Below are positions 2,042 to 19,102 of a stretch of DNA of 64,000 nucleotides, in pieces (position 1 is the first letter of the stretch; each line of letters opens with the position of its first letter). The notes under the pieces are model-generated. The model had not been told where the DNA came from. It made no database searches and saw nothing but the letters and a program-made list of their open reading frames with translations. Origin of the DNA: Streptomyces sp. AM 2-1-1 (GTDB lineage: Bacteria; Actinomycetota; Actinomycetes; Streptomycetales; Streptomycetaceae); contig NZ_CP119147.1 of assembly GCF_029167645.1 (NCBI RefSeq), forward strand, positions 3,862,501 to 3,926,500, given 5' to 3'. The translations under genes were made by a program, and so were the position numbers.

Positions 2042-3562
2042 TCAGATCACCGGGGGTGTGGTGAGCGGGGTACGCCAGCGAGCGGCCGCCTGTTCGGGAG
2101 ACCGCAGGAGTGCCAGTGTGGCGAGACCCTGGGTCTCTCCGGTCCTCAGCAGCTCGGGGAGACACGGCAGGGGAGCGACGGCGGCGACGTCGTCGAGGAC
2201 GAGCGTGAGTGGTGGGTCGAGCCGACCGTCGGTTGACCGTGCGGCCATGCGGCGGCCGTGCTCGACCACGTGCGAGGCGAGCGCGGTGAGCAGGGGCATC
2301 GCGCCCGGGTGGTGGCGGGGGTCCTCGATGGACTCGCCGACCACATAGAGGGTTCCCCCCTCGGTGGCGAAGGAATCCAGCGCGGCGGCATCGGTTCGGT
2401 TCGGTGCGCACGCCTCGCGGATGTGGACCGTGCCCAGCGCGCCCAGCGCCCGCGCCGTCAGCTCCTGTGCGGCGCGGCGGCGTTCGGGGTGAGCGGTGAG
2501 GGCCGACTCGAGCAGACCGGCGAGACCGGACGCCGCCTTCGGGTGGGTGCGGAGCAGCCGTACGCCGTCCTGGGCGTTGCCGCCCTGTGCCCAGCGGTGC
2601 ACCTGGCGGAACGGCCGTCCGTCCACGGCCGCGGCGTGCAGCCAGCACTGCAGCAGGGTCTGCGCGGTGTCCGCGGTCGCCTCGTCGAGGCGGGCCCGCG
2701 GCCGTACCGGTGCGAGCAGGGCCTCGGCCCGGGCCGCGGCCACCTCGGGCTGTTCACAGCCGGAGACGGGCGACCAGTGCAGCCGGGCCGGGGTGTCGCA
2801 GAGGTGGCCAGGGTCGTAGACGAGGACGGGCCCGAGCTTGCTGCGGGCGTCCTTGGTCGCGGCCCACACCGCGGGGTCGGACGTGACCACCAGGGCCCCG
2901 CCGGAGGCGTTCCGTACGGCCTCGACGGCGGTCTCCCGTCGGGCGTCGGCAGCGGCGTAGAGGAGAGCGGGGGTGGCGTGTGTCCGGGGGGAAGGGAGCA
3001 GCGGGGGCGGTGTGACCGGGTACGGGGGCGCGGGATCCGCCGGGGACGCGGGCGGGGCCGCGTACCCGGGCGCGGTGAAGGCAACGGACGCCGGTGCGGG
3101 GACAGCGGCCGGTGGGGGGTACGGCGCGGGGGCGGGGGGCGTGAGGGCGGCCAGGCGCTCCTCGCGGGCGCGACGGCGTACGGCACGGCCCCGGGTCACG
3201 ACGCCCAGCAGGAACACGGCGAGGACCACCAGGATCAGCAGTTCGCTGATGAGGATGCCCCAGAAGAGGCCGTAGCCGGAGAGCTGGTCCGGTGGGGTGG
3301 CGGGCCAGGCGCCCGGGAGGTCCTGCGGTGCGGCCGCGAGCTCGCGGAGGGCGCCGGGGGTCCGGGGGAGGGACACTCCTCGGGGCCAGGCGCCATGGGC
3401 GAGCAGGCCGCCCAGGCCGGCGGCCGTCCAGGCCAGCACCGTCGCCCCGAGGAGGAAGGCGAGGCCACCGATCAGCAGACCGTCGGGAACACCGCCTCTC
3501 TCCTCGCGCCGGACGGGCGGCCGTCCGAAACCGGGACCGGGTCCCGGAGAGGTCGGCGCCAT
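2042..3562 (-). CDS. TraG/VirD4-like membrane ATPase (last gene of T4SS-like operon)
   Basis: About 506 residues. Two membrane segments lie in the first 130 residues (around GLLIGGLAFLLGATVLAW and LLILVVLAVFLLGVV), then a Pro/Ala-rich linker, then a cytoplasmic domain resembling the conjugative coupling ATPases (TraG/VirD4, TraM recognition type): ALVVTSDPAVW, GPVLVYDP, a helical insert, and a Walker-B-like LTLVLDDVAAVAPLP. No classical GxxGxGKS Walker A is visible; the equivalent position reads NASGGALVVTSD, so nucleotide hydrolysis is uncertain. The start at 3562 lies two bases after the stop of the upstream ATPase gene, so the two are translationally coupled; a GTG at 3592 is an alternative. 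Its place in the operon suggests a partner or coupling protein. Confidence 0.75.
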   Translation of the reverse strand: MAPTSPGPGPGFGRPPVRREERGGVPDGLLIGGLAFLLGATVLAWTAAGLGGLLAHGAWPRGVSLPRTPGALRELAAAPQDLPGAWPATPPDQLSGYGLFWGILISELLILVVLAVFLLGVVTRGRAVRRRAREERLAALTPPAPAPYPPPAAVPAPASVAFTAPGYAAPPASPADPAPPYPVTPPPLLPSPRTHATPALLYAAADARRETAVEAVRNASGGALVVTSDPAVWAATKDARSKLGPVLVYDPGHLCDTPARLHWSPVSGCEQPEVAAARAEALLAPVRPRARLDEATADTAQTLLQCWLHAAAVDGRPFRQVHRWAQGGNAQDGVRLLRTHPKAASGLAGLLESALTAHPERRRAAQELTARALGALGTVHIREACAPNRTDAAALDSFATEGGTLYVVGESIEDPRHHPGAMPLLTALASHVVEHGRRMAARSTDGRLDPPLTLVLDDVAAVAPLPCLPELLRTGETQGLATLALLRSPEQAAARWRTPLTTPPVI

Positions 3563-3563
3563 C

Positions 3564-5000
3564 TCAGGCCACCGTGGACTCGGACGTCTCACCGAGCCGC
3601 TGTTGCCGTTCGATGCGGGCCGCCCGCTGTGCCGTCTCCCGCTCGGCCTCGCGCGCGTACTCGGGCAGCAGGCCGTCCAGGTCGTCGTCGGGGTGGGCTG
3701 AGGACTCCGTCATCGCGCGGTCGGTGAAGACGAGCGGGCGTTCCGCCTCGGTGATCAGGTGTTTGACCACCTGGACGTTGCCGTTGACGTCCCACACCGC
3801 GATGCCCGGGGTCAGTGTCGGGATGATCTCCACGGCCCAGCGCGGGAGTCCGATGACCCGGCCCGTCGCCCGTGCTTCGTCGGCCTTCTGGGCGTAGATC
3901 GTCCGGGTGGAGGCCATCTTGAGGATCGCCGCCGCCTCACGCGCCGCCGCGCCGTCCACGACGTCGCTGAGGTGGTGCACGACGGCGACGAAGGAGAGCC
4001 CGAGCCGGCGGCCGAACTTCAGCAGGCGCTGGAAGAGCTGGGCGACGAAGGGCGAGTTGATGATGTGCCAGGCCTCCTCGACGAGGAAGATGCGTTTCTT
4101 CCGGTCCGGCCTGATCCAGGTGTGCTCCAGCCAGACCCCGACGATCGCCATCAGGATCGGCATGGCGATCGAGTTGCGGTCGATGTGCGAGAGGTCGAAG
4201 ACGATCAGCGGGGAGTCGAGGTCGATGCCGTCGGTCGTCGGCCCGTCGAACATGCCGCGCAGGTCACCGTCGACGAGCCGGTCCAGGACGAGCGCGACGT
4301 CGAGCCCCCAGGCCCGTACGTCGTCCAGGTCGACGTTCATCGCCTCGGCCGACTCGGGCTCGGGGTGGCGCAGTTGCTCGACGATGTCCATCAGGACCGG
4401 CTGGCGGTCGGTGATGGTCAGGTTGACGTAGGCGTGGGCGACCTTCAGGGCGAAGCCGGAACGCTCGTCGAGACCATGGCCCATGGCCACTTCGATGATC
4501 GTGCGGAGCAGGGCGAGCTGGCCGGTGGTCGCGATCGCGGGATCGAGCGGGTTGAGCCGGATGCCACCGTTCAGGGCGGCGGTGGGGTCGAGCCGGACGG
4601 GGGTGATCCCCAGCTCCTCGGCGATGAGGTTCCACTCACCGTGCCCGTCCTCGCCCTGCGCGTCGAGCACCACGACCTGGCGGTCGCGGAAGCGGAGCTG
4701 ACGGAGGACGTACGTCTTCTCCAGCGCAGACTTGCCGTTGCCGGACTCGCCGAGCACCAGCCAGTGCGGCGCCGGCAGCTGCTGCCCGTACAACTGGAAG
4801 GGGTCGTAGATGTACCCCTTGCCGGAGTACACCTCGCGCCCGATGATCACTCCCGAGTCGCCGAGACCGGGCGCCGCGGTGGGCAGGTAGACGGCCTGGG
4901 CCTGGCCCGTGGACGTACGTACGGGGAGGCGGGTCGTCTCCACCTTGCCGAAGAGGAACGCGGTGAAGGCTTCCGACAATGCGGACAGTGGGTCGCGCAT
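3564..5000 (-). CDS. VirB4-like ATPase, C-terminal (motor) half
   Basis: 478 residues of HerA/FtsK-type ATPase corresponding to the motor domain of VirB4/TraC proteins. Walker A is GESGNGKSALEK near residue 85; Walker B is RIFLVEEAWHI near residue 300. After it comes LGLSFVAVVHHLSDV, the sensor strand, typical of VirB4. The membrane-interacting N-terminal VirB4 domain is missing here and is encoded by the preceding gene, so VirB4 is split over two polypeptides. ATG at 5000. The gene lies 175 bases after the N-half gene and just before the TraG-like gene. It probably powers assembly or transport through the membrane complex encoded upstream. Confidence 0.85.
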   Translation of the reverse strand: MRDPLSALSEAFTAFLFGKVETTRLPVRTSTGQAQAVYLPTAAPGLGDSGVIIGREVYSGKGYIYDPFQLYGQQLPAPHWLVLGESGNGKSALEKTYVLRQLRFRDRQVVVLDAQGEDGHGEWNLIAEELGITPVRLDPTAALNGGIRLNPLDPAIATTGQLALLRTIIEVAMGHGLDERSGFALKVAHAYVNLTITDRQPVLMDIVEQLRHPEPESAEAMNVDLDDVRAWGLDVALVLDRLVDGDLRGMFDGPTTDGIDLDSPLIVFDLSHIDRNSIAMPILMAIVGVWLEHTWIRPDRKKRIFLVEEAWHIINSPFVAQLFQRLLKFGRRLGLSFVAVVHHLSDVVDGAAAREAAAILKMASTRTIYAQKADEARATGRVIGLPRWAVEIIPTLTPGIAVWDVNGNVQVVKHLITEAERPLVFTDRAMTESSAHPDDDLDGLLPEYAREAERETAQRAARIERQQRLGETSESTVA

Positions 5001-5175
5001 GAGGTGGCTGCCCTCTCTCTCGACTGCTTCCGGTCGCCCGGAGGTGGGTGGTGCGGAGCGCTTGTCGCGCGGAGCGGTCCGTGGCTTTCCTGGAACGTGG
5101 CGGTGATGTCCGGGTGCTCACCGAGAGCCCCGCGCGGGGTTTCTCCCCCGGCCCGCCCGGCCCGGGGATCCCGCG

Positions 5176-6726
5176 TCAGCGGCGGATCCCGGTCGCGAAC
5201 GGCAGGGTGTTCACGAAGGCGCGGTGATGCTCGCGGTCGCACCACTCCAGCTTCAGGTACGACTTGCCGGCCGAGGCCCGGATCGTCCGCTTGTCCCGCG
5301 CGAGTGCCTCGGGGGAACGCGACGACACGGTGATGTACCCGACGAGGTTCACTCCCGCCGCGCCGCTCGCGAGGTCCTCACCGCGCTGGTCGAGCCTGCC
5401 GTGGGCGGCGATGTCACGCGGGTCGACCGTGCGGTTCATCTTGGCCTGGCGGCTGGCTTCGGCGTCGTCGTTGGTCTTCTCGGTCAGCATCCGCTCGATC
5501 GCGAGCTCGGTGGGTTCGAGATCCATCGTGACGGCGACCGTACGGATGACGTCGGGGGTGTGGACGAGGAGCGGGGCCAGGAAGTTGACGCCCACCGGCG
5601 TCATCGGCCACTCCTTCACCCAGGCCGTGGCATGGCACCACGGTGCGCGCGTGGTGGACTCCCGGGTCTTCGCCTGCAGGTAGGTCGGCTCGACCGCGTC
5701 CAGCTCGGCCGGCCACGCGTTCCGCTTCGTCATCGCCTGGATGTGGTCGATCGGGTGGTCGGGGTCGTACATCGAGTGCACGAGCGAGGCCAGCCGGCTC
5801 TGACCCAGCGGCTGGCGGACCCGGATGTCGGCCTCGGCCAGGCGGGCGCAGATGTCGGTGAGCTCACGGGCCATCACGACGGCCAGCCCGCTGTCGCGGT
5901 CGAGCTTGCGGCCGCCCTGGGGGCGTGCCGCGCGGGCCATCGCGTTGGCCTCGGCACCGAGCTCGCGGCTGTGGTGCATGCAGGCGACGAGGTACGCGCG
6001 GTGCTGTTCGCTGGAGGTGGAGACCATCGACTGCAACTGGTCGTACGAGTCCTGGAGCCAGCGCGGCGCGTGGTGGTCGCCCCGCTGGGCCACGTCCTTG
6101 GCGTGCGCGTCCGGGTCGGCGGGGAGGGTGCGGGCCAGCATCTGGATGCGGGTGACGAAGCCGTCGCCGTTGGCCACGTGCTTGAGCAGCGTCCCGAAGC
6201 GGTCGACCAGGGCCTCCTGGTCCTCGCTGTCGCGCAGCCCCACACCGGGGCCCTCGATCTCGATGGCGGCGGTCACGGTACGGCGGTCGGCGTGCAGGAG
6301 GACAGCCATCTCGTCCGGCCCGAACGGGGCGGAGAGCCAGCTGATCCGTCCGATCCCCGGAGGCGGCCCGACCTCGACCTCCCGGCCGTCGCCCCGTACG
6401 CCGGCCTCCATCACGGAGGACCGGTAGGCGGTGCCGCGGCGCAGAGACCGCTTGAAGCTGCGGTTGATCTCGAACCACTTGTAGAAGGTCCGGTGCTTGT
6501 ACGGGAAGTACACGACGGCCAGGGCCAGCATCGGGAATCCGGTGAGCAGCACGATGCGCAGCGAGAGCACCGGGACGAGGAGACCGCTCATCATCCCGAG
6601 GAACGCGCCGACGATGATGAGGGCGATCTCGCCGGTCTCGCGGTTCTTGCCGACGATCGCGTTCGGCCGGGCGCGGCCGATGAGATACGTGCGGCGGGGC
6701 GCGATCGGGTGGGACTGGATCGTCAC
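5176..6726 (-). CDS. SCO6880-family protein: PrgI-like membrane region plus VirB4 N-terminal domain
   Basis: 516 residues. The N-terminus (TYLIGRARPNAIVGKNRETGE) precedes two hydrophobic segments (GEIALIIVGAFLGMMSGLL and IVLLTGFPMLALAVVYF), the arrangement of PrgI/VirB3-like proteins. The rest resembles the non-catalytic N-terminal domain of VirB4/TraE; no Walker motifs are present. The GTG start at 6726 overlaps the previous stop in GTGA, so translation is coupled to the TrbL-like gene. It most likely forms the VirB3-VirB4N scaffold that recruits the separate motor ATPase encoded next. Confidence 0.8.
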   Translation of the reverse strand: MTIQSHPIAPRRTYLIGRARPNAIVGKNRETGEIALIIVGAFLGMMSGLLVPVLSLRIVLLTGFPMLALAVVYFPYKHRTFYKWFEINRSFKRSLRRGTAYRSSVMEAGVRGDGREVEVGPPPGIGRISWLSAPFGPDEMAVLLHADRRTVTAAIEIEGPGVGLRDSEDQEALVDRFGTLLKHVANGDGFVTRIQMLARTLPADPDAHAKDVAQRGDHHAPRWLQDSYDQLQSMVSTSSEQHRAYLVACMHHSRELGAEANAMARAARPQGGRKLDRDSGLAVVMARELTDICARLAEADIRVRQPLGQSRLASLVHSMYDPDHPIDHIQAMTKRNAWPAELDAVEPTYLQAKTRESTTRAPWCHATAWVKEWPMTPVGVNFLAPLLVHTPDVIRTVAVTMDLEPTELAIERMLTEKTNDDAEASRQAKMNRTVDPRDIAAHGRLDQRGEDLASGAAGVNLVGYITVSSRSPEALARDKRTIRASAGKSYLKLEWCDREHHRAFVNTLPFATGIRR

Positions 6727-8057
6727 CGCCCTCCACCTCCTGTGCTCGGATTACCTGTGCTGCCGGAACCGCCCCGCGGGGAGCGGCTGCTGTGGGGGGT
6801 CCCGGAGGTGGGACCGGAACCGCTGCGGGGTGCGGGGGCGGCCCCTCCGCCCCCGGTGCCCCGGGAGCTGTGGGCCGCGACACCGCCGCTGACCGGGTTG
6901 GCGGGGCGTCCGCCGCCTCCGCCGCCGCTGTTCTGGTCGTTGCGGCCGCTGTGCGTCTTGATGCCCTGGGAGACGAGTGCGGCGGGCGAACTGACCAGGG
7001 CGGCGGCCTGGGAGCCGTCGGTCGCCTGCTTGCGGTTGGTGCGCGCACCCTGAATCTCGTCGCCGAAGCCGGGGACGAAGCGGTAGATCATCGCCGAGGC
7101 GAAGATGGCGAGCAGGATGATGGAGAGGCCGGAGACGACGGCGGAGAGCGCGTCGGGGCCGTCGTCGGCGGAGAGCGCGCCCGCGAGGCCGAGGACGATC
7201 ACGATCACCGGCTTGACCATGATCACCGCGATCATGATGCCCGCCCAGCGGCGTACGTGGCCCCACATGTTCTTGTCGACCAGCCCGGCGTACACCACCA
7301 CGCCCAGCAGCGCACCGACGTAGAGGAGGGCCGCCCGGATGACCAGCTCCAGCCAGAGGATGCCGGCGGCGAGGAGGGAGACGAGGGAGACGACGATCAG
7401 CATGATCGGGCCGCCGCCCATGCCGTCGCCCTTCTCCAGCGCCTCGGCGAACGAGCCGAAGAAGACGTCGGACTGGCCGCCCGTGGCGGACGAGATCACC
7501 TCGGTGACCCCGTCGGTGGCCGAGACGACGACGTACAGGATGAGCGGCGTGAAGGCCGAGGCCAGCACGGTGAGCCAGAGGTACCCGACGGCCTCGGAGA
7601 GCGCGGTGGTGAAGGGGACACCGCGGATGGCCCGCTTGGCCACGGCGAACAGCCAGAGGACGAGGGTCAGGATGGTGGAGGCGGCGAAGACGATCGCGTA
7701 CTGCTTGCGGAAGGACTCGTTGGTGAAGTCGACGGTGGCGGTGCCCTCGACTGCCTTGCTGAGCTGGCCGATGAGGTAGGACGCGGCATCGGCGCAGCCG
7801 TGGGCGAGGGAGGTGAGGGGGTCCAGGGGGTCGTCGGTGGTGTCGGGAGGCGTGGTGCGTGCGCCGGTGTCGCCTTCGCAGTAGTCCTTGGCGGGGCCGA
7901 CAATGAGCTCGCACTTACTGTCCCCACTCGGGGAGGGGGATGGCGTGGGTGAGGGCGATGGTGCTGCGGCAGCACGTGCTGCGAAAGTCAGCAGCGTCCC
8001 TTGAAGAATCGCGAGCGCGATGCCTGCTTTAGCCGCCAGGCGGGAGCTAACGGGCAT
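6723..8057 (-). CDS. TrbL/VirB6-like polytopic membrane protein
   Basis: 444 residues with a signal-like N-terminus (LAAKAGIALAILQGTLLTFA), a Pro/Ser-rich segment, two Cys (CELIVG, DYCEG), then six or more membrane segments between about residues 120 and 340. The cytoplasmic tail is rich in Gly and Ser (GGGGGGRP). The pattern matches the TrbL/VirB6 inner-membrane channel component. The ATG at 8057 is chosen for its strong GGAGGG ribosome site seven bases upstream; it overlaps the end of the previous gene by 11 bases. The stop overlaps the next start. Confidence 0.8.
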   Translation of the reverse strand: MPVSSRLAAKAGIALAILQGTLLTFAARAAAAPSPSPTPSPSPSGDSKCELIVGPAKDYCEGDTGARTTPPDTTDDPLDPLTSLAHGCADAASYLIGQLSKAVEGTATVDFTNESFRKQYAIVFAASTILTLVLWLFAVAKRAIRGVPFTTALSEAVGYLWLTVLASAFTPLILYVVVSATDGVTEVISSATGGQSDVFFGSFAEALEKGDGMGGGPIMLIVVSLVSLLAAGILWLELVIRAALLYVGALLGVVVYAGLVDKNMWGHVRRWAGIMIAVIMVKPVIVIVLGLAGALSADDGPDALSAVVSGLSIILLAIFASAMIYRFVPGFGDEIQGARTNRKQATDGSQAAALVSSPAALVSQGIKTHSGRNDQNSGGGGGGRPANPVSGGVAAHSSRGTGGGGAAPAPRSGSGPTSGTPHSSRSPRGGSGSTGNPSTGGGGR

Positions 8058-8937
8058 AAGTGAACCCTCCGTACTCCTCGACTGCCTTGGCGATTTCATC
8101 GGCGCTCGCGGCGGTGCGATCCGTATTCACCGGCGCGGGGCCGTCTTTCTGAGTGAAGCTGTCGACTTTCCACTCGTCGGCCACCCAGTGAAGTTCGAAC
8201 GTCATGGTGAACCAGTCGTTGCTTACCGGGTTGGTCGAGCTGACCCCTGCGGTGCCGAAGACGCCCGTGCACCACACCTCGACTCTGGCGGAGGAATCCG
8301 CGTAGCTGGTCAGCTTCGTTCCCACCGGCGCGGTTCGTGAGACGTACGTGAGGCCACTGGGCGCATTGCCGCTCTTGTCCAGACCGAGCTTGTTCAAAAA
8401 GCTCTCGTTGTAGGACTGGTCGAACTTGGCCGCCAGCTCCCCGGCGCGCTCGGCGGTGAACACCTGGCTGATGATCTGCGCTCGTCGGTCCGGCTTGAGA
8501 ATGTCGGCGGATACCAGAGCCACCGCATAGTTCGCCGCCGCGCTCTGGGCCCCCTGCTCGTCGTGGGCGAAGCCCGAGGCGATGGTGCCGTTCTTGCCGG
8601 TGACGGGGTCGGTGCCGGTGGGGGCGGTCGGGGCGGTGCCTCGTGTCGTGTCCGAGCCGCCGTCGGCCGAAGTGCCGGAGGTGGTGGGCGCGGCGTCGTC
8701 GCCCTTGTCACCACCGAGGTTCGCGAACGCGATGGCGGCGACGAGCAGCACCACCACGCCGACAGCCATGACCAGCGAGCGGGAGTTGCGGGCGGGCCGC
8801 CGGCCGTGGGGCGCGCCGGGGTTGCCTTCGGGGAGGCGGGTGCGCGTCTGGCGGGTGCCGCCCAGCGTGCTGTACGCGCTGTCGTCCCGGCCGCCGGAGT
8901 CCCTGCTTCCGTAGCCCTGCTCGTCGTCGTAGCTCAT
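8047..8937 (-). CDS. VirB8/TcpC-like membrane-anchored protein with NTF2-like domain
   Basis: 296 residues: about 60 charged N-terminal residues rich in Gly, Asp and Arg, one membrane helix (SLVMAVGVVVLLVAAIAFANL), a Ser/Thr/Asp linker, and a C-terminal alpha+beta domain (SGFAHDEQGAQSAAANYAVAL to VADEWKVDSFTQ). The topology and the AAxNYxxAL...WKV pattern fit the periplasmic-type VirB8/TcpC assembly-factor fold of conjugation systems. ATG at 8937 with a GAGGGG site. The downstream TrbL-like gene overlaps its 3' end. Confidence 0.72.
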   Translation of the reverse strand: MSYDDEQGYGSRDSGGRDDSAYSTLGGTRQTRTRLPEGNPGAPHGRRPARNSRSLVMAVGVVVLLVAAIAFANLGGDKGDDAAPTTSGTSADGGSDTTRGTAPTAPTGTDPVTGKNGTIASGFAHDEQGAQSAAANYAVALVSADILKPDRRAQIISQVFTAERAGELAAKFDQSYNESFLNKLGLDKSGNAPSGLTYVSRTAPVGTKLTSYADSSARVEVWCTGVFGTAGVSSTNPVSNDWFTMTFELHWVADEWKVDSFTQKDGPAPVNTDRTAASADEIAKAVEEYGGFTYAR

Positions 8938-9116
8938 GCCGCGTACGTCCCCTCAGCCGTGTGCGGACTGCCGTCATATGACGGTAGCTCTGCTGGGCGC
9001 CTCGCGGGTGCGGTGCGGTGACTCGACATGGGATGACTCGACCTCAGCCGGGGGCGCGACGGACGGATGGTGGTGGGGAGACGGCGGACGACGGCATCCC
9101 TGGTGCCGACGGGCCG

Positions 9117-9425
9117 TCAGACCGCCATGCCGTACACGATGGTGAAGAGGGTGCCGAGGGAGCCGATGATGAAGACGCCGGTCAGACCCGCGACGATCAG
9201 GCCCTTGCCTTGTTCCGCGCTGAAGGTGTCGCGCAGGGCAGTCGCGCCGATGCGCTGCTTGGCCGCGCCCCAGATCGCGATACCGAGGCAGAGCAGGATG
9301 GCGACCGCCATCACCACCTCGATCATGATGCGCGCCTCGTTGCCCAGCGTTCCGAACGGGCCCCAGTTCGGCGCGATTCCGCCGATGATGGTGGTGATGT
9401 CGCCCTTTTCAGCTGCCAGGATCAT
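9117..9425 (-). CDS. VirB2/TrbC-like small membrane protein, first gene of the T4SS-like operon
   Basis: 102 residues with two hydrophobic helices (around IMIEVVMAVAILLCLGIAIWG and GLIVAGLTGVFIIGSLGTLF) joined by a short basic loop (AAKQRIGATA). No long signal peptide precedes them, unlike classical pilins. Size and topology fit the TrbC/VirB2-like or TcpD-like small subunits found first in such operons. The ATG at 9425 gives the compact protein; longer in-frame starts would add a charged, improbable N-terminus. The 179 bases to the next gene hold two copies of TGACTCGAC spaced 15 bases apart (9019 and 9034). Confidence 0.72.
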   Translation of the reverse strand: MILAAEKGDITTIIGGIAPNWGPFGTLGNEARIMIEVVMAVAILLCLGIAIWGAAKQRIGATALRDTFSAEQGKGLIVAGLTGVFIIGSLGTLFTIVYGMAV

Positions 9426-9781
9426 GTAAGTCACCGCCCCAGTTGGGTACTTCGCCGCCCGCGCCGGCCGGTGCGGGTCATGCCGTCTATCTTCGCTGAT
9501 GAAACCGCCGTCGTACGACGCCTTCACGGGTCTCTTTACCCGGATCTCGCACACATGACCGGAACCACCGCCCTGACCTGCGGTGCGCTCCGGACCGGCG
9601 GCGATACCGCACGATCACTCTGTGTATCACGCTCCGTGACGATGGGCAATGAGGATGGGTGCGGCATTCTGGCGCGATCGCAGCGCTCGTCGGGCCGCCC
9701 GTGTTCGGATGCGCTGTTCGAGAGCGGGTCGTACGCCGTCGCGTTCGCCACGGGGGTGACGCAACGTCATGTCCACCTGGG
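9426..9781 (-). other. 356-bp gene-free region, likely promoter of the T4SS-like operon
   Basis: No coding region is supported here; open frames in both directions have no family resemblance. It separates the XRE regulator gene (ending at 9782) from the first operon gene, both on the minus strand. It presumably holds the operon promoter and untranslated leader. I see no strong hairpin or canonical -10/-35 pair I would defend. Confidence 0.5.
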
Positions 9782-10636: not shown

Positions 10637-10678
10637 CGGCCTCCCTTCGCCCAGTCACTCGTACGGGTGTTATAGGGC

Positions 10679-10710
10679 ATGCATTACCCCGAGTGGAGGG
10701 AATGTATTAC
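10679..10710. promoter_or_regulatory. Direct repeat in the divergent XRE/HATPase promoter region
   Basis: ATGCATTAC (10679-10687) and ATGTATTAC (10702-10710) are nearly identical, 23 bases apart, and AT-rich for this genome. They lie between the divergent regulator and ATPase genes, so they are candidate binding sites for the XRE protein or promoter elements. Function is inferred from position only. Confidence 0.35.
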
Positions 10711-10827
10711 ATGGCCCCTCTACCGTGATCGTGGGACAGGTGCCCGCGACGAGCCCGCAGGTCGGCCGGTTCGGACGTCGGGTGCCGTACGGGGCCCGCC
10801 AACCGCACCGAACGAACGGGGACTTCC

Positions 10828-11313
10828 ATGCACGCACCCACCGTATCGCCGCCGTGGGCGTACACCCTTCAACTGCCGCACGATCCGCGTTCTCCGGGCG
10901 TCGCCCGCTCGGTCCTGCGGGTCGTGCTGCGGGCACACGGGATGACTGGTCTGGCCGACACGGCCGAGCTGATGGTCAGTGAGCTGACGACCAACGCCTA
11001 CCAGCACTCCTGGGGCTCGTACTCGCTGCGGATGTGCGGCGCCGGCCAGGGGCGGATCCGGCTCAGCGTCTGGGACAGCAATCCGGAGATCCCGCCCCCC
11101 TTCCGGGACTCGGGGGAGCACGGAAGCACCCGAGGCGCCAGGGGTCCCGAAGCGTACGTACCGGCGCAGCAGACCTCGCTCACCGAGCGGGGCCGTGGTC
11201 TGGCTCTCGTACAGATGTGTGCGGACAGCTGGGGTGGACTCGCTCTGCCGGGCGCCCCGTCGGGCCAGGGCGGCAAACTGCTGTGGGTGGTGTGCGGAGA
11301 GAAACCGGAGTGA
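10828..11313 (+). CDS. ATP-binding protein, RsbW/anti-sigma-like HATPase
   Basis: 161 residues of the GHKL ATPase fold as in serine-kinase anti-sigma factors. The N box is SELTTNAYQHS, the G1 box VWDSNPEIP and the G2 box ERGRGLALVQMCAD. There are no membrane or sensor domains. Streptomyces has many orphan copies, commonly beside XRE/DUF5753 genes, as here with the divergent neighbour. It could bind a sigma factor or an anti-anti-sigma protein; the partner is not in the window. ATG at 10828. Confidence 0.85.
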   Translation: MHAPTVSPPWAYTLQLPHDPRSPGVARSVLRVVLRAHGMTGLADTAELMVSELTTNAYQHSWGSYSLRMCGAGQGRIRLSVWDSNPEIPPPFRDSGEHGSTRGARGPEAYVPAQQTSLTERGRGLALVQMCADSWGGLALPGAPSGQGGKLLWVVCGEKPE

Positions 11314-11510: not shown

Positions 11511-12065
11511 GTGAGGGCGGTGTCCGTGATCGGACAGCCGCAGGGGCGGCAGACACTGAGAGACCTGGCCGAGCAGCCGGTGCACGGCCACGACACGGAC
11601 GGTCCGGCCGATGGGCCAGGGCCGGGCCGGGGGCCGGGAGGCTCTGTGTCCGGCCACGCGCGGTTGCAGCACAGCGACGGCCCATGGGTCAGGGCCGCGG
11701 GTGGTGCGGAGGCGCTCCACACCCATCTCGCACCGGCCCGCGCCGAACTGGAGAAGTCGCACGAAGGGCTGCTGGCCGGCGAATCCGCGGGTCACTTCGC
11801 GGTACTGCGTGAGCTCGCGGCCGTCCGTGAGTCCTGGGTGCGTCGCGTGGGGACGGCGCAGGGTGAGTGCGGAAGCCTCGCCGGCAAGTTGCGGGCCGTC
11901 GCGCGGGAACAGGGCGCGACGGACCAGGCGGTGCGGGAGAGCTTCGGCCCGCGGACGGACGTCCCGGCGCAGCCGTCGCCGGTACCGCACCTCGCCCCGT
12001 CGCCACCGGCCTCGGGGCCGACGCCCCCCTCTGCGCTGTACTTCCTCGGCGGGAGTGACACGTGA
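11511..12065 (+). CDS. Helical hypothetical protein, possible WXG100/ESX-like partner of the following hydrolase
   Basis: 184 residues from the GTG at 11511 (AAGGA six bases upstream); a GTG at 11526 is also possible. The first 60 residues are Gly/Pro/Asp-rich. Residues about 75-150 look like two long amphipathic helices (LAPARAELEKSHEGLLAG and ELAAVRESWVRRVGTAQG), in the manner of WXG100-type proteins, although no exact WxG turn is present. The C-terminus is a Pro/Ser tail. The stop overlaps the hydrolase start in GTGA, so the two are translationally coupled. The family is not recognised with certainty. Confidence 0.6.
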   Translation: MRAVSVIGQPQGRQTLRDLAEQPVHGHDTDGPADGPGPGRGPGGSVSGHARLQHSDGPWVRAAGGAEALHTHLAPARAELEKSHEGLLAGESAGHFAVLRELAAVRESWVRRVGTAQGECGSLAGKLRAVAREQGATDQAVRESFGPRTDVPAQPSPVPHLAPSPPASGPTPPSALYFLGGSDT

Positions 12066-13858
12066 AGGGGGAACTGACGTGGTCGGCGCTCCTCTCCGTA
12101 CCGTGCGGGGAGCTGGACGGCGCGGCCGACGGCTGGGGCCGCCTCAGCGGCAGAGCGGACGCGGCGCGCGACCGGATCGACCAACAGATCATCATCGGCC
12201 TGCGGGACACACAGGAAGGTGAGGCGGCGGACGCCGCCCTCGACCGCCTGCGACAGCTGGCCAGGAACTTCCAGTACGTCTATACGGAGACCGGGCTCGT
12301 ACGCACGGCGCTCAACAGCCTCGCGCACGAGGTGCGCGCGCACCAGAAGTCGGTCCGCGAGGCGTTGGCGGACGCTGCGGGTCTGCAGTTCACCGTGCAC
12401 CCGGACGGCTCGGTGTCCTACCCGGAGAAGGCCGGCCTGATCGCGGAGACGCCGCTTCCGGGGGGAAGGACCGTCGCCGGCAGCGGATTCCCTGATCTGA
12501 GAGGGCCGTCGGGTGCCCTCACCGCTCCCAATCCTCATGCGGCCACCGCGCAGGGCATCGCCGACCGGATCGCCAGGTCGGTGACGATGGCTGCCGACGC
12601 GGACGTGCGGTACGCGCGCATCCTCCGTGACCTGAAGGCCGAGGACGGCCTGAACGTCCCGAACGCGGCGTGGACCGACGCTGCGGCCGACATGGCATCC
12701 GTGCGGGCGGCCGCTCGGGCCTACCTGAACGACCACATCCCGTACCAGGCGACGGCCGCCGAGCGTAAGGAATGGTGGGCCGGCCTCCCGCAGGAGCTTC
12801 GTGACGAGTACCTGGCGACCTACCCGGACATCATCGGGAACCTCGACGGAATCCCCGCTCTTGTACGCGACGCCGCCAACCGGGACAGCCTCCAGCTGCT
12901 GATCGGCAAGTTGGAGGGGGTGGGCGGTCACGACGCGGCGGAGAAACTCGAGGCGCTGCGCTTGATCGACGAGCAATTGCAGGCGCCGCTCAAGGCGGGC
13001 GACCCGCCGATGTACCTGCTCGGCATTGGCGACGAGGGGAACGGGCGCGCGATCGTGGCCTATGGAAATCCGGATACGTCGAGGAATGTTGCGACCTACG
13101 TGCCCGGGCTAAATACATCATTGGACACAAAGTTTTTTACGTCGGATGTTAAGAGAGCCAGGGATACTGCCGTTGCGGCGCGAGAAATCGATGGGTCTAG
13201 TTCGGTCATTGTTTGGCTGGGCTACGACGCGCCGCAATCTCCTGACTGGTTCCATTCGTTTGAGGTGGCGGGATCTGCGTCGGCGACAGAGGGTGGAGCT
13301 GCTTTGGATGGATTCATGGATGGGATGCTCGTTGCGAATGAGAATGATAATCCGCATCTGACCGCCATTGGCCACTCGTATGGTTCTCGGACCGTAGGCG
13401 CTGCCTCGCAACTTGAGGGCGGCATTTCGGGCGTCGACGACATCGTCCTAGTAGGCAGTCCAGGAGTTGGCGTGGATCATGCTAGTGACATGTCGGTGGG
13501 TGCTGATCACGTCTTCGTCGGTGCTGCCGATAATGATTTTGTAACCACGTTCCCTTCAAAGACTGAAGTAGCGGCGAGTGTGGTCGGATTCCTTGCCGGT
13601 GGGCCAACTGGATCTGTCATCGCAGCCAAGGTTGCTGACCCAAATTCTGACGAAGGATGGTTTGGTAGGGATCCAGCTAGTGGGGCCTTCGGAGCACGGC
13701 GGTTCTATACGTCAGACGGTCCGTCCTTCCTTGGGTTCGGATCCGTTGCCTCGCATTCCCAATATTTTGACCCGGATTTGGATAGCGTGAGCGCAGATAA
13801 TATTGCACTGATTGCTGCTGGCCAGTCCGCGAAGATCAAAACGAAGGATCCTCGTTGA
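12062..13858 (+). CDS. Alpha/beta-hydrolase (DUF1023 type), first copy, mosaic base composition
   Basis: 598 residues. Residues 1-140 are helical (DGAADGWGRLSGRADAAR, then RNFQYVYTETGLVRTAL), followed by a linker and a DUF1023-type hydrolase domain from about 220. Near its start come RDEYLATYPDIIGNLDGIPA and LLGIGDEGNGRAIVAYGNP. The nucleophile is Ser439 in GHSYGS; candidate acid and base residues lie in HVFVGAADND and ASHSQYFDP. No signal peptide is seen. From about 13062 the DNA turns AT-richer with unusual codons to the end (27 of 60 bases G or C in 13081-13140), while the protein stays homologous to the second copy at 14587. GTG start overlaps the upstream stop. Confidence 0.82.
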   Translation: MKGELTWSALLSVPCGELDGAADGWGRLSGRADAARDRIDQQIIIGLRDTQEGEAADAALDRLRQLARNFQYVYTETGLVRTALNSLAHEVRAHQKSVREALADAAGLQFTVHPDGSVSYPEKAGLIAETPLPGGRTVAGSGFPDLRGPSGALTAPNPHAATAQGIADRIARSVTMAADADVRYARILRDLKAEDGLNVPNAAWTDAAADMASVRAAARAYLNDHIPYQATAAERKEWWAGLPQELRDEYLATYPDIIGNLDGIPALVRDAANRDSLQLLIGKLEGVGGHDAAEKLEALRLIDEQLQAPLKAGDPPMYLLGIGDEGNGRAIVAYGNPDTSRNVATYVPGLNTSLDTKFFTSDVKRARDTAVAAREIDGSSSVIVWLGYDAPQSPDWFHSFEVAGSASATEGGAALDGFMDGMLVANENDNPHLTAIGHSYGSRTVGAASQLEGGISGVDDIVLVGSPGVGVDHASDMSVGADHVFVGAADNDFVTTFPSKTEVAASVVGFLAGGPTGSVIAAKVADPNSDEGWFGRDPASGAFGARRFYTSDGPSFLGFGSVASHSQYFDPDLDSVSADNIALIAAGQSAKIKTKDPR

Positions 13859-14409
13859 TGAGTAGGAAATGCGCAATTTTAATCGCGGTGCTCGTAGCGT
13901 TGTGCGGATCGGCATGCTCCCGAGAGTGGCGGCAAGATATGGATATGCAGGAAGCTGCGCAGTACGGTGACAACGCGCTTGATGCCGTTTTCCAAGATAT
14001 TAAGCCTGCCGTTCATTGGACTCATGGTCCCACAAGCATCGGTAGTTGTGAGGTATCGCGCAGGCGGACAGTCATGACTGTCATTTCGGAAGCGAGGCGT
14101 GGCAGTTTTTTGGGGGTCGTAGATCGGTTTTGGCGAAAAAGTGGATATGAAATCACGGCGATCAATAATGATGAAACGTTCCCCGCGATTTATGCGAGGA
14201 CGCAGGAGAGTTTTACCTTGGTGTTGCGATTCGGAGGATCCGGACAAGCATTTTTCCGCGTAGACAGTCCGTGTGTTGAAAACTCCGAGGTCGTCGATTC
14301 AAAAAGCAAGCCCAACACCCCCAGTTACGAGGGCATGGAAAACATTCCGCGCCCCAACATTCACTCCGACTTCTGGTCGGCCACATCCGGAAGTTCGCCG
14401 GCCTCCTGA
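13858..14409 (+). CDS. Lipoprotein, first copy, with a TTA codon
   Basis: 183 residues. An N-terminal hydrophobic stretch ends in a Cys (ALCGSAC), a loose lipobox. The mature part is similar to the lipoprotein at 17058: shared blocks include VHWTHGPTSIGSCEVSRRRT, RFWRKSGYEI, FFRVDSPCV and the C-terminal PSYEGM. The ATG at 13858 shares one base with the hydrolase stop (TGATG). Codon 8 (13879-13881) is TTA, the rare bldA-read leucine codon, so production may be developmentally controlled. The whole gene is AT-rich relative to its neighbours. It probably works with the hydrolase as an exported partner or inhibitor; that role is inference. Confidence 0.75.
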   Translation: MSRKCAILIAVLVALCGSACSREWRQDMDMQEAAQYGDNALDAVFQDIKPAVHWTHGPTSIGSCEVSRRRTVMTVISEARRGSFLGVVDRFWRKSGYEITAINNDETFPAIYARTQESFTLVLRFGGSGQAFFRVDSPCVENSEVVDSKSKPNTPSYEGMENIPRPNIHSDFWSATSGSSPAS

Positions 14410-14531
14410 GGCAGTGACCGGGTGGTGGCCGCCGTGAAAGCCTCGTCGGTCAACTGACCTTTCCTGGAAGCTATTTGAGTCCCGGTTTGGGTCCTGGGGC
14501 CCATGCCTTGGGCGGCAGGGGTGTGGTCCTC

Positions 14532-14563
14532 TACGTGCGGTGGCTGGTCTGCCACCGCACGTA
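14532..14563 (+). promoter_or_regulatory. 13-bp hairpin 23 bases before the second hydrolase start
   Basis: TACGTGCGGTGGC (14532-14544) pairs perfectly with GCCACCGCACGTA (14551-14563), loop TGGTCT. No T-run follows. The Shine-Dalgarno sequence (GGAGG at 14574-14578) begins 10 bases later. It may end the upstream transcript, be a leader structure controlling translation, or be a protein-binding palindrome. Confidence 0.55.
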
Positions 14564-14586
14564 CTTGTGAGCTGGAGGACCCCCAC

Positions 14587-17061
14587 GTGTCTGGCATACG
14601 AGAACTTGCGGTTCCGGGGGGTGGTGCGACGGGCGCCACTCGGCTGGCGGATGGTGGACGCCGCAGACCAAGGGCGTTACAGGCCTGCTTAGTTCTCGTA
14701 CGACTGGTTTTCGCGAGCACTGTCCTGGGCGTGATCAACGTGCTCGCGTTGGCGTCCTCGGTGGATGCGGTGGACGGGCGGCTACTGGGGTGGCTTCTGT
14801 ATGCCGCGCTGCCGGGATCCGTCGGTTTTCTGCTCTCGCTCTACGCGCGTATCAGCGGGCGCGGAGTGTGGCTCGGGCTGCTGGGGATGCAGGTCTGGCT
14901 CCTGCTCGGTTCGCTGGCGACGTTGGGTCACGCGGGCGCAGGGACGGGAGGCCTTCCGCAACTGGTGCTGCCCGTAGTCGTCATGGTGCTGCTGTGTCGG
15001 CCGGCGGTGCGGGGATGGTTCCGGACGCCTGTTGCGGAACGGGAAAAGGGGCCGCGCTTCAGCGTGGGCGGTATTTTCGCTGCTCGCCGGGACAGCGGTC
15101 AGAGCGCGATGGAGTACCTCGGCCTCGTGTTGATCGTGGTGGCCTTGGTCGGGGCGATCACGGCGACGTCCGTCGGTACCCAGCTCACCGGCGAGATACG
15201 CGGTGCCATCTGCCAGTTGACCGGGAGCGCATGCTCCTCGGCAGGCGGCGACGTGGTCGCCGGAGGAGAGAACGAGAGCCGTACGGCCGGATCTTCCGGC
15301 GGGCCCGGCGCTGACGGTGGAAGGCAAGGCGGCACGGACGGCGGGGTGTCCACCGCATCCGGCGGGGGCTCGAACATAGGCGGAAGCGCCGCGACCACTG
15401 CCGGCGGCACCGCAACCGGTGCGACCAACGGCGATCAGGGCACCGTTACCGCAGGCGGGACCGGTGAAGGCTCAGCAACCGAAGGCGCCACCACCGAGCG
15501 CACCGCCCCGCAGCACGCGCAAGCAGCCGGCACGTCCGGCGCATCCGGGTCGTCGGGCACATCCGGGTCGTCCGGCACATCCGGCTCCCCCACCACCCCC
15601 GCAGCCCCCACCACCCCCGCAAGCCCCACCCCCCGCCCGAGCCACGGCGGGTTCTTCCATGGCCTGGTCACCGATGGGCTCCTGGGGGATCTCGGAGGTG
15701 CGGCCAGGGCCGTACGGCACCCGCGGGAGAGCATCGCCCGGCTCGGCGACCCGTGGTCCGGGAGGGCCGGGGGTGCCGGGGCCGAGAAGGCGTCGGGGGA
15801 CTGGGCCGGGGCGATCGGGGCGTGGGCCGAGGCGTCCGGGGGCGTCGGGGTCGGGGGGATGGGGTTGCCCGGGTCCGGATCCCGGGTAACGGCGGCGGTC
15901 CGCGAGGACGAACGGCGGTTCCTGAACGACCGGATCCCGGTGAACGCCCCGGCGGCGGCGCGCAAGGCGTGGTGGGACGGGCTGAGCGCGGCCGAGCGTG
16001 CGCGGTACCTGGAGGTGTCACCGGAACGGATCGGCAACCTGGACGGGATCCCCGCCTCGATCCGGGACCGAGCCAACCGGCAGAACCTCCAGACCCTGAT
16101 CACCCGGCTGGAAGGCCGCGGCGACACGAAGTCCAAGAGGATGCTGGAGGGGATGAGGGAGATCGACCGGCAGGTGAAGGAGGGCTCGCAGCCACCGATG
16201 TTCCTCCTGGGGATCGGTGACGAGGGCAACGGCCGGGCGATCGTCTCGTACGGGAATCCGGACCTGGCGCAGCACGTGTCGGCGTACGTGCCGGGGCTGA
16301 ACACCTCGCTGGACAAGGAGTTCGCGCAGAACGACCTGAAGCGGGCGCGGGACACCGCGATCGGGGCGCAGGGGTACGAGACGTCGAGCGCCGCCGTCGT
16401 CTGGCTGGGGTACGACGCCCCGCAGTTGCCGGACGGCGACGGGATTGCCGGGTACTTCGCCATCATGGGCACCGGGCGGGCGGTGAAGGGTGGGGCCGCC
16501 TACAGCGATTTCTGGGCCGGGCTGACGGCGACGAACACCCACGCGGACCCGCACTTCACCGCGATCGGCCACTCCTACGGCTCCCGGACGGTGGGCGCGG
16601 CCACCCAGCGGGAGGGCGGGATCCCCGGCGTCGACGACATCGTCCTCGTGGGCAGTCCGGGGGTGGGCGTCGACCAGGCGGTGGATCTGGGGGTCGGCGC
16701 CCGGCACGTGTTCGTCGGCGCGGCGGCGAACGACCCGGTGACCAAGCTGCCGTCGAAGACCCAGGCGGTCGTGGGGTCGCTGGGACTGCTGGCCCTCGGT
16801 CCGGCGGGGGCCTACTTCGCGGGGGACCTCGCGGATCCGGGCGACGACGACCTCTGGTTCGGGAAGGATCCGGCGAGCAAGGCGTTCGGGGCCGTCCGCT
16901 TTCCGGTGGACCCCGGGCCGCCGTTGATCAGCGGGCACGGCATCAGCGCGGAGGCGCACTCGCAGTACTTCGACCCGGTGCGGGACGCCATGTCGGCCGA
17001 CAGCATCGCCCTGATCGTCTCGGGGCATTCCAGCAGTCTGAAGATGGAGGAACAGCGATGA
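14587..17061 (+). CDS. Membrane-anchored DUF1023 alpha/beta-hydrolase with internal Flp-prepilin motif
   Basis: 824 residues from the GTG at 14587 (GGAGG eight bases upstream; an ATG at 14503 has no ribosome site). Three or four membrane helices fill residues about 33-140. Then RRDSGQSAMEYLGLVLIVV contains an exact Flp-type processing motif (G171, Q172, E176, Y177) followed by a hydrophobic stretch. A Gly/Ser/Thr linker with GTSGSSGTSG repeats spans about 215-370. The hydrolase domain (about 430-824) matches the protein at 12062, with nucleophile Ser663 in GHSYGS and a C-terminal EAHSQYFDP. Codons 31 and 35 are TTA, suggesting bldA control. Stop and lipoprotein start overlap in ATGA. A fusion of membrane/prepilin-like and hydrolase modules. 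Confidence 0.82.
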   Translation: MSGIRELAVPGGGATGATRLADGGRRRPRALQACLVLVRLVFASTVLGVINVLALASSVDAVDGRLLGWLLYAALPGSVGFLLSLYARISGRGVWLGLLGMQVWLLLGSLATLGHAGAGTGGLPQLVLPVVVMVLLCRPAVRGWFRTPVAEREKGPRFSVGGIFAARRDSGQSAMEYLGLVLIVVALVGAITATSVGTQLTGEIRGAICQLTGSACSSAGGDVVAGGENESRTAGSSGGPGADGGRQGGTDGGVSTASGGGSNIGGSAATTAGGTATGATNGDQGTVTAGGTGEGSATEGATTERTAPQHAQAAGTSGASGSSGTSGSSGTSGSPTTPAAPTTPASPTPRPSHGGFFHGLVTDGLLGDLGGAARAVRHPRESIARLGDPWSGRAGGAGAEKASGDWAGAIGAWAEASGGVGVGGMGLPGSGSRVTAAVREDERRFLNDRIPVNAPAAARKAWWDGLSAAERARYLEVSPERIGNLDGIPASIRDRANRQNLQTLITRLEGRGDTKSKRMLEGMREIDRQVKEGSQPPMFLLGIGDEGNGRAIVSYGNPDLAQHVSAYVPGLNTSLDKEFAQNDLKRARDTAIGAQGYETSSAAVVWLGYDAPQLPDGDGIAGYFAIMGTGRAVKGGAAYSDFWAGLTATNTHADPHFTAIGHSYGSRTVGAATQREGGIPGVDDIVLVGSPGVGVDQAVDLGVGARHVFVGAAANDPVTKLPSKTQAVVGSLGLLALGPAGAYFAGDLADPGDDDLWFGKDPASKAFGAVRFPVDPGPPLISGHGISAEAHSQYFDPVRDAMSADSIALIVSGHSSSLKMEEQR

Positions 17062-17708
17062 GGCGGAGGGTCCGGACAGCGGGCGCCCTTCTGGCGCTCG
17101 GTGTCGCGCTGGTCGGCTGCGGCGGGCAGCAGGCGGGGTCGGCCGGTTCCGGCCCCAACGGCCTCAGCAGCCCCAGCGGGAACACCACGGCTCCGAGGGC
17201 TGCGGAGACGGGGGCCACGGCGACGAGCGGGAGCACGGAGAGTGCCATGAGCGCGATGGACATGCAGGGTGCCGCCGAGCGCGCCGACGACATGCTCGAC
17301 CTCACGCTGGGGGCCATCGAGCCCGCGGTCCGGTGGGCGCACGGCCCGACCACGACCGGTTCGTGCGACGTGACGCGCCGGCGCACGGTGATGACGGTCG
17401 TCGCGCCCGAGCGGCGGCAGGAGTTCCTGGACAGGGTGGAGTCGTTCTGGCGCGAGCGCGACTACCGGATCAAGGCGGTGAACACCGACGAGGAGTTCCC
17501 CGCGGTGTACGCGCAGGCGGAGGGGTTCGGCATCAGCGTGAGCGTACGGGGCGGGGGGCAGGTGTTCTTCGAGGTGGACAGCCCGTGCGTACGGGAGTCG
17601 AAGGTGGCCGCGTCCGCGTCGAAACCGAACGGACCCTCGTACGAAGGGGTCTACCCCCTGCCGCGGCCCGATGTGGAATCCCCGTACTGGTCCGAGGGAG
17701 CCTCCTGA
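17058..17708 (+). CDS. Lipoprotein, second copy
   Basis: 216 residues. A clear lipoprotein signal peptide (LLALGVALVGC, lipobox LVGC), a 50-residue Ser/Gly/Thr linker, then a domain homologous to the lipoprotein at 13858 (VRWAHGPTTTGSCDVTRRRT, SFWRERDYRIKAVNTDEEFP, FFEVDSPCV, PSYEGV). The two conserved Cys in the domain may form a disulfide. Base composition and codon use are typical of the chromosome, unlike the first copy. Start overlaps the hydrolase stop (ATGA), so the hydrolase and lipoprotein form one unit, present twice in tandem. Confidence 0.8.
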   Translation: MRRRVRTAGALLALGVALVGCGGQQAGSAGSGPNGLSSPSGNTTAPRAAETGATATSGSTESAMSAMDMQGAAERADDMLDLTLGAIEPAVRWAHGPTTTGSCDVTRRRTVMTVVAPERRQEFLDRVESFWRERDYRIKAVNTDEEFPAVYAQAEGFGISVSVRGGGQVFFEVDSPCVRESKVAASASKPNGPSYEGVYPLPRPDVESPYWSEGAS

Positions 17709-18097: not shown

Positions 18098-19102
18098 GTG
18101 CGGAAATACTGGGTGTTCCTCGGCGGCGGGATCGGGCTGTGCCTCTGTTTCGTGGGGCTGCTCGTGGTCGGTACGTACTCCGCCGCCGCGGGCATCGCGG
18201 GGGCGGGCGGGGCGGTCGGGCTGGCCAAGGGAGCGGTGCCCGCGCGCTATCAGCCGCTCGTGGAGAAGTGGGGCACGCTCTGCGCCGCGATCAACCCGGC
18301 GCTGCTCGCCGCGCAGCTGTACCAGGAGAGCGGGTGGAATCCGCGGGCGCAGAGCGCGGCGGCCGCCCAGGGCATCGCCCAGTTCATCCCGGGTACGTGG
18401 GCGACGCACGGCCTCGACGGCGACGGTGACGGTGACCGGGACGTGTGGGACCCGGCGGACGCCATCCCCTCGGCGGCTTCGTACGACTGTGAGCTCGCCG
18501 GATACGTGAAGGACGTGCCGGGCGATCCGACCGACAACATGCTCGCCTCCTACAACGCGGGCGCCTACCGGGTCATCCGGTCCGGCGGGGTTCCCGCGAT
18601 CGCCGAGACGCAGAACTACGTGAAGATCATCCGGTCCCTGGAGAAGAGCTTCGCGAAGCCGGTCGGCCGGGTGGCGCCCTCGCAGCAGGCGGCCGGGGCG
18701 ATCTACTACGCGCAGCAGAAACTGGGCACCCCGTACCTCTGGGGCGGGAACGGCACGGCCGAGCAGGGCGGGCGGTTCGACTGCTCCGGGCTGACGCAGG
18801 CCGCGTACCGGAGCGTGGACATCGAGCTCCCCCGGGTCGCCAACGACCAGTACAACGCGGGGGCGCATCCCTCGCGGGACGAACTGCTCCCCGGTGATCT
18901 GGTCTTCTTCTCCGACGACTTGACCAATTCGCGGGCCATCCACCACGTGGGGATCTACGTCGGTGGCGGGTACATGATCAACGCGCCGTACACCGGTGCG
19001 GTGATCCGGTTCGACTCGATCGACAGTCCCGACTACTTCGGCGCGACGCGGGTCACCAAGGACGGCGCGGCGGCGCTTCCCACCGCTCTCCCGCAGGCCT
19101 GA
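18098..19102 (+). CDS. Bifunctional peptidoglycan hydrolase: SLT lytic transglycosylase plus NlpC/P60
   Basis: 334 residues. An N-terminal membrane anchor (VFLGGGIGLCLCFVGLLVVG) is followed by a lytic transglycosylase domain (about 55-190) with catalytic Glu in AAQLYQESGWNPRAQS, then AAQGIAQFIPGTW and ASYNAGAY. An NlpC/P60 endopeptidase domain (about 205-325) follows, with Cys in GGRFDCSGLTQAAY and His in IHHVGIYVGGGYMI. This pairing is typical of wall-degrading enzymes of conjugative and T4SS-like machines in Gram-positive bacteria, and the secretion-like operon ends only 8.7 kb away. GTG start at 18098; the ribosome site is weak. Confidence 0.9.
   Translation: MRKYWVFLGGGIGLCLCFVGLLVVGTYSAAAGIAGAGGAVGLAKGAVPARYQPLVEKWGTLCAAINPALLAAQLYQESGWNPRAQSAAAAQGIAQFIPGTWATHGLDGDGDGDRDVWDPADAIPSAASYDCELAGYVKDVPGDPTDNMLASYNAGAYRVIRSGGVPAIAETQNYVKIIRSLEKSFAKPVGRVAPSQQAAGAIYYAQQKLGTPYLWGGNGTAEQGGRFDCSGLTQAAYRSVDIELPRVANDQYNAGAHPSRDELLPGDLVFFSDDLTNSRAIHHVGIYVGGGYMINAPYTGAVIRFDSIDSPDYFGATRVTKDGAAALPTALPQA

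Follow-up and report, generated by a model that had tools for sequence, protein, structure and literature searches.

A hydrolase gene and a lipoprotein gene, together repeated in tandem

What might two successive pairs of a hydrolase and a lipoprotein be doing between a conserved operon and a cell wall hydrolase gene of Streptomyces sp. AM 2-1-1? The pairs lie within a window of 64,000 nucleotides (contig NZ_CP119147.1, positions 3,862,501 to 3,926,500), the whole stretch of DNA that was analysed (Table 1). A first-pass annotation of this window had described tandem pairs with overlapping start and stop codons, and a wall hydrolase gene with SLT and NlpC/P60 domains (SLT-NlpC) as their neighbour; these points were borne out. 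It had also suggested, cautiously, an exported enzyme and a partner at the cell surface with a possibly antagonistic role; the gene linkage, cassette exchange, toxin-type delivery modules, and tandem and orphan lipoproteins described below support this. We propose that the locus probably encodes two polymorphic toxin-immunity pairs, in which exported serine hydrolases are each inhibited by the lipoprotein encoded downstream.

Both hydrolases belong to the Abhydrolase_8 family (PF06259, DUF1023), with Pfam matches of E 3.4e-30 (residues 326-498, hydrolase 1) and E 9.4e-31 (hydrolase 2) and scores of 105.5 and 107.3 bits against a cut-off of 20.5 bits. The whole genome contains four such matches. 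The two hydrolases are 57% identical over 392 aligned positions, in their C-terminal part only, and the two lipoproteins 54% over 147 positions; a genome-wide lipoprotein search returned just these two copies, the third match having an E of 8.9. Read from the sequence, start and stop codons overlap at 12062-12065 (GTGA, small protein and hydrolase 1), at 13856-13860 (TGATG, hydrolase 1 and lipoprotein 1) and at 17058-17061 (ATGA, hydrolase 2 and lipoprotein 2).

A predicted Ser/Asp/His triad is conserved. We aligned 104 pairs from the window, 49 loci and loci L086-L125 (hydrolase score above 300, lipoprotein close downstream), and found the residues corresponding to Ser439 and Asp492 of hydrolase 1 identical in all 104 catalytic domains and His565 in 100 of the 100 having a residue at that position. 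The AlphaFold2 model of the hydrolase (pLDDT, the predicted local distance difference test score, 66.5) has an alpha/beta core and N-terminal helices of low confidence (residues 15-49 and 54-107). The model matches the folds of lipases and esterases, though at low significance, and for this reason a lipid can only be suggested as the substrate. Each enzyme would be a serine alpha/beta hydrolase, probably attacking a lipid or another envelope ester of closely related competitors. None of the five proteins matched an anti-phage defence model of PADLOC at E 0.01. In five genomes (G155, G168, G110, G171 and G075) a single open frame holds the hydrolase match in two pieces, separated near query residues 300-320, a sign that the catalytic domain may contain a variable insert.

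The lipoprotein and the hydrolase are tightly linked

Linkage was assessed in 199 Streptomyces genomes and in a separate set of 49 loci; the sets overlap partly, and some loci are apparently from the same strain. The lipoprotein is present in 62 of the 199 genomes, genome G191, missed by the first profile, being a 63rd. Among the matches listed for the 62 genomes, 83 of 87 lipoproteins lie at most 2 kb downstream of a hydrolase on the same strand. The other four are found in G092, where the orphan gene (L113) adjoins groEL, in G152 (L117, on a 3.9-kb contig), in G030 and, as a weak fragment, in G151; a search relaxed to E 10 still gave no hydrolase at L113 or L117. Conversely, the hydrolase was searched for irrespective of the lipoprotein (199 genomes, E <=1e-50, up to nine candidates scored per genome), and all 77 matches, from 55 genomes, have a lipoprotein as the next gene downstream (76 by the first lipoprotein profile, that of G191 by a wider profile at E 2e-26). 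The first-pass annotation had staked its reading on the lipoproteins accompanying the hydrolases in other genomes; the pairing is kept there, and this check did not refute the reading.

In the 49-locus set, where several loci are on short contigs or have a disrupted hydrolase frame (L039, L046, L049), a script located part of a hydrolase next to 72 of 73 lipoproteins; the remaining one (L016) is contained in a long open frame overlapping its hydrolase. Both hydrolase types are carried in full by 23 of the 49 loci. One hydrolase at L086 (G116:C462) is followed by a tandem row of three lipoproteins, an arrangement like that of immunity-gene arrays. Side observations from these loci include hydrolase matches scattered over several frames at L039, L046 and L049, possibly broken copies, and distant lipoproteins at L124 and L125 (G164 and G096) which by inspection have two apparent domain repeats and adjoin a distant hydrolase.

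The first copy is exchanged as a cassette

In the window, the first 320 residues of hydrolase 1 have a GC content at third codon positions (GC3) of 0.88, its catalytic domain one of 0.53 and lipoprotein 1 one of 0.58; SLT-NlpC is at 0.93, and in copy 2 the values are 0.92-0.94 for lipoprotein 2 and for the part of hydrolase 2 that starts at residue 459. Out of the 104 pairs, 43 first-type loci at the same chromosomal site and 30 second-type loci were compared further. Mean GC3 at the first-type loci is 0.92 for the N-terminus, 0.90 for the linker domain, 0.68 for the catalytic domain and 0.70 for the lipoprotein, and at the second-type loci 0.82, 0.95, 0.93 and 0.91, respectively. Exceptions to the drop, with uniformly high values, are L052 and L056/L122.

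Distances were compared at the 43 first-type loci (Mantel permutations, which ignore phylogeny). Distances of the catalytic domain correlate with those of the lipoprotein at r = 0.85 and with those of the N-terminus at 0.60, while N-terminus and SLT-NlpC correlate at 0.83; the correlation between catalytic domain and lipoprotein is still 0.74 given SLT-NlpC and the N-terminus. In 50-residue windows along hydrolase 1, the partial correlation with the lipoprotein given the flanking SLT-NlpC is 0.02-0.27 from residue 15 through residue 344, 0.35 at residues 335-384 and 0.58-0.69 from 375 to 584. Exchange of the proposed toxin domain together with its immunity gene as a unit, as in polymorphic toxin systems, is observed for copy 1 only.

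Polymorphic toxin systems with WXG/T7SS (type VII secretion system) delivery combine modular N-termini with an exchangeable C-terminal toxin and a downstream immunity gene, and the survey of such systems includes the alpha/beta hydrolase toxins Tox-ABhydrolase1-3 (PMC3482391). The pairs described here resemble them in their modular delivery N-termini, exchangeable C-terminal domain and downstream gene, which we propose to encode immunity. In the part of that survey available, the words DUF1023, LppA, pilin, Flp and TadE do not occur.

We propose that copy 1 is a variable cassette carried by a T7SS-type protein and that it would be exported by a type VII (ESX-type) system, for which the small partner protein and the helical N-terminus would serve. 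In the loci examined, 71 of 74 first-type hydrolases, those with a helical N-terminus, have a gene for a small-protein homologue next to them, and the genome of the window has three EccC genes above cut-off. The small protein had been called WXG100-like, which did not hold: Pfam and NCBIfam scans gave no WXG100 family match for it, and weak WXG100 similarity was found instead in the N-terminus of hydrolase 1. By inspection, the N-terminal helices of a divergent first-type hydrolase at L246 (G191:C7:9000-15000) clearly contain a WSG motif.

The second copy shares its delivery module with toxin-type proteins

Hydrolase 2 begins with about four transmembrane helices followed by a class III/Flp-like signal, and a signal of the GQSAMEYLG type is present in all 30 second-type hydrolases. 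This N-terminal module was matched in 92 of 121 Streptomyces genomes, in many only across the pilin-like part. From the long matches we picked 31 regions, all of which by this choice carry the module (at least residues 44-218 of 220); some of their frames are short or ended by a contig edge. Eleven of the proteins were scanned: four have a Tox-REase-5 domain (one also PT-HINT) and two ADPrib_exo_Tox. One delivery N-terminus with differing toxin C-termini is thus seen in six of the 11. The catalytic domain of hydrolase 2 matched none of 12 proteins compared. The window's own genome encodes a second protein with the module at about 1.98 Mb (L208, C1:1981000-1985400), ending in Tox-REase-5, and in another Streptomyces genome (G044) the module is fused to ADP-ribosyltransferase-type domains (L220, L223). 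A class III/Flp-like signal also occurs in two proteins near 2.53 Mb of the same genome as the window, which by inspection are Flp-like and TadE-like.

By the positive-inside rule, the hydrolase of copy 2 would lie outside the membrane. Copy 2 would be the conserved counterpart with a pilin-type carrier, anchored or exported through the four-helix and Flp-prepilin-like module. In the portions of the literature searched we found no description of such a delivery module, and our data suggest another type of module for toxin delivery.

The lipoproteins have an LppA-like fold

The lipid-carrying cysteine, Cys65 and Cys140 (numbering from TTG) are conserved in at least 95% of the 104 lipoproteins; the lipobox of lipoprotein 1 itself is atypical (GSAC). 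The lipoproteins of the window are about 11-12% identical to LppA/LppB (PF16708; PDB 2v7s) and did not match the Pfam model of LppA at E 1, and the family member P0334 reached 24.1 bits against a cut-off of 26.4. They have the same fold as 2v7s, and their profile similarity exceeds that of controls, placing them in a superfamily of LppA-like fold. LppA and LppB are mycobacterial and have been described as restricted to pathogenic mycobacteria, whereas the proteins described here are from Streptomyces. No function of LppA/LppB was found in the portions of the literature searched.

In a class-wide sample, LppA exceeded the cut-off in 17 of 394 genomes (26 matches), and four further genomes had matches only below it. 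An Abhydrolase_8 domain lies upstream of 23 of the 26 on the same strand, at 0.3-1.7 kb from domain to domain, which involves 20 distinct hydrolases; a rough chance expectation of this adjacency is 0.0007 per gene. The other three are in G347, in G434 (upstream) and, as a fragment, in G470. In G276 one hydrolase is followed by three LppA genes. Ten LppA-linked hydrolases were scanned, and EspA_EspE was found in two (E 4e-24 and 7e-26), Hydro_N_hd in one and WXG100, below cut-off, in one. The pairing thus extends to other actinobacteria, partly with ESX-type substrates.

Proposed toxin-immunity pairs and the alternatives

The nearest system with an established mechanism is that of Staphylococcus aureus, in which the T7SS-exported phospholipase TslA is neutralised by the immunity lipoprotein TilA, which occurs in variable copy number, and has the helical partners TlaA1/A2 (PMC10730906). 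The Streptomyces locus likewise combines a hydrolase, an adjacent extracytoplasmic lipoprotein in variable copy number, a small helical partner and a T7SS theme; toxin and immunity roles are our proposal. The parts are unrelated: TslA has a reverse domain order and TilA is a DUF576 protein, whereas here an Abhydrolase_8 domain follows an N-terminal helical domain, the lipoprotein is LppA-like and the second copy uses a pilin-type module. Pfam gave no match to DUF576 or a reverse-order lipase, and the hydrolase domain is C-terminal, which separates our proteins from that family. The earlier statement that no system of this composition had been described was therefore too strong, and it is because the logic is the same that we propose exported toxins with immunity lipoproteins. 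Each lipoprotein would sit outside the producing cell, on its membrane, and there bind and inhibit its cognate hydrolase. For lppA/lppB of M. tuberculosis, evidence of positive selection and recombination has been published (PMC4770551), and tandem T7SS immunity genes of Firmicutes also recombine (PMC9484751); both fit this toxin-immunity interpretation.

Several observations weigh against it. Foldseek gave no PDB match at E < 0.001 for either predicted model, and the WXG100 similarity of the hydrolase 1 N-terminus, in a region of low model confidence, is weak and below cut-offs (E 0.04 in NCBIfam, E 0.3 in Pfam). Copy 2 tracks the species like a housekeeping gene (Mantel correlation of catalytic domain and SLT-NlpC 0.96) without exchange, and recombination of physically linked neighbours can by itself produce co-divergence. 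No T7SS-type domain was matched at E 0.01 in six of the ten LppA-linked hydrolases scanned, and no toxin family in five of the 11 scanned proteins with the copy 2 module.

Steric foldases serve some bacterial lipases, and the lipoprotein could instead be a dedicated foldase, activator or surface tether, the pair serving turnover of envelope lipid or wall lipid rather than antagonism. Strict linkage and a conserved LppA-like fold would suit a chaperone equally well. Also in favour of this alternative, the second copy is conserved and follows the species. Two or three lipoproteins behind one hydrolase, orphan lipoproteins, the variable cassette of copy 1 and the toxin-type delivery module of copy 2 argue the other way, and we consider this alternative unlikely.

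A developmental device tied to the operon on the left, acting in aerial growth or sporulation, is less probable still. Six minus-strand genes, one with AAA_10/TraG-type ATPase matches, lie there; from published description rather than from sequence, we take them to be cmdABCDEF (SCO4126-4131) of S. coelicolor, a name that applies to the flanking operon only, outside the hydrolase-lipoprotein module. The module is flanked by cmdF and SLT-NlpC at many loci. Mutants of cmd are defective in differentiation (PMC2782261), and the first-pass annotation had raised a developmental role beside this operon resembling a type IV secretion system. However, the lipoprotein occurs in 62 of the 199 genomes and SLT-NlpC (E <=1e-60) in 196; related pairs are found at other sites with no cmd gene within the stretch examined; and among 12 module-free sites, cmdF and SLT-NlpC are both visible in nine, directly adjoining each other in L224 and L226 and 0.4 to about 5 kb apart in the others. 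For these reasons the flank looks positional. That the co-divergence of copy 1 merely reflects hitchhiking of non-interacting partners in a recombination hot spot is very improbable: although neighbouring genes recombine jointly and the Mantel tests leave phylogeny in, residues 295-344, on the other side of the cassette, do not track the lipoprotein (partial r 0.02), and the pairing recurs at different sites and, in further actinobacterial families, with LppA.

Under the toxin-immunity interpretation, two unannotated lipoproteins become part of a partnership with DUF1023 hydrolases that is widespread in actinobacteria, LppA/LppB would gain a specific, testable role, and the data suggest that actinobacterial ESX-type systems deliver hydrolase toxins between bacteria, as the T7SS of Firmicutes does. 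A broader idea, which we hold tentatively at somewhat less than even chances, is that the LppA-fold lipoproteins of Actinomycetota, M. tuberculosis LppA/LppB included, form an immunity superfamily for ESX-exported DUF1023 hydrolases, a counterpart of TslA-TilA, and that Streptomyces additionally delivers some toxins through a four-helix and Flp-prepilin module, possibly handled by its Tad pilus apparatus.

Features of the locus

Table 1 Features in and around the hydrolase-lipoprotein module (window positions).
Feature	Position	Strand	Remark
cmdA-F-like operon	2042..9554	-	conserved flank outside the module
Small helical protein, proposed T7SS partner of hydrolase 1	~11511..12065	+	start uncertain, open reading frame from 11475
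Hydrolase 1	12062..13858	+	helical N-terminal domain, linker, catalytic Abhydrolase_8 domain
Exchangeable cassette	13022..14406	+	hydrolase 1 catalytic domain and lipoprotein 1
Predicted catalytic Ser439 (GHSYG) of hydrolase 1	13376..13378	+	predicted partners Asp492 and His565; roles inferred from fold
Lipoprotein 1, proposed immunity protein	13858..14409	+	ATG start; open reading frame from TTG 13855; supported by family alignments
Hydrolase 2	14587..17061	+	about four transmembrane helices (by inspection), class III/Flp-like signal GQSAMEYLG, low-complexity linker, Abhydrolase_8 domain
Four-transmembrane and Flp-like module of hydrolase 2	14587..15246	+	common to other toxin-type proteins
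Lipoprotein 2, proposed immunity protein	17058..17708	+	LppA-like fold
SLT-NlpC/P60 wall hydrolase	18098..19102	+	conserved flank outside the module

For hydrolase 2, the GTG at 14587, which is preceded by a GGAGGA site, is a more likely start than the ATG at 14503. Between cmdF and the module (9782-11313), the window encodes a DUF5753/HTH regulator and a divergent HATPase protein, and similar pairs occur at some other loci.

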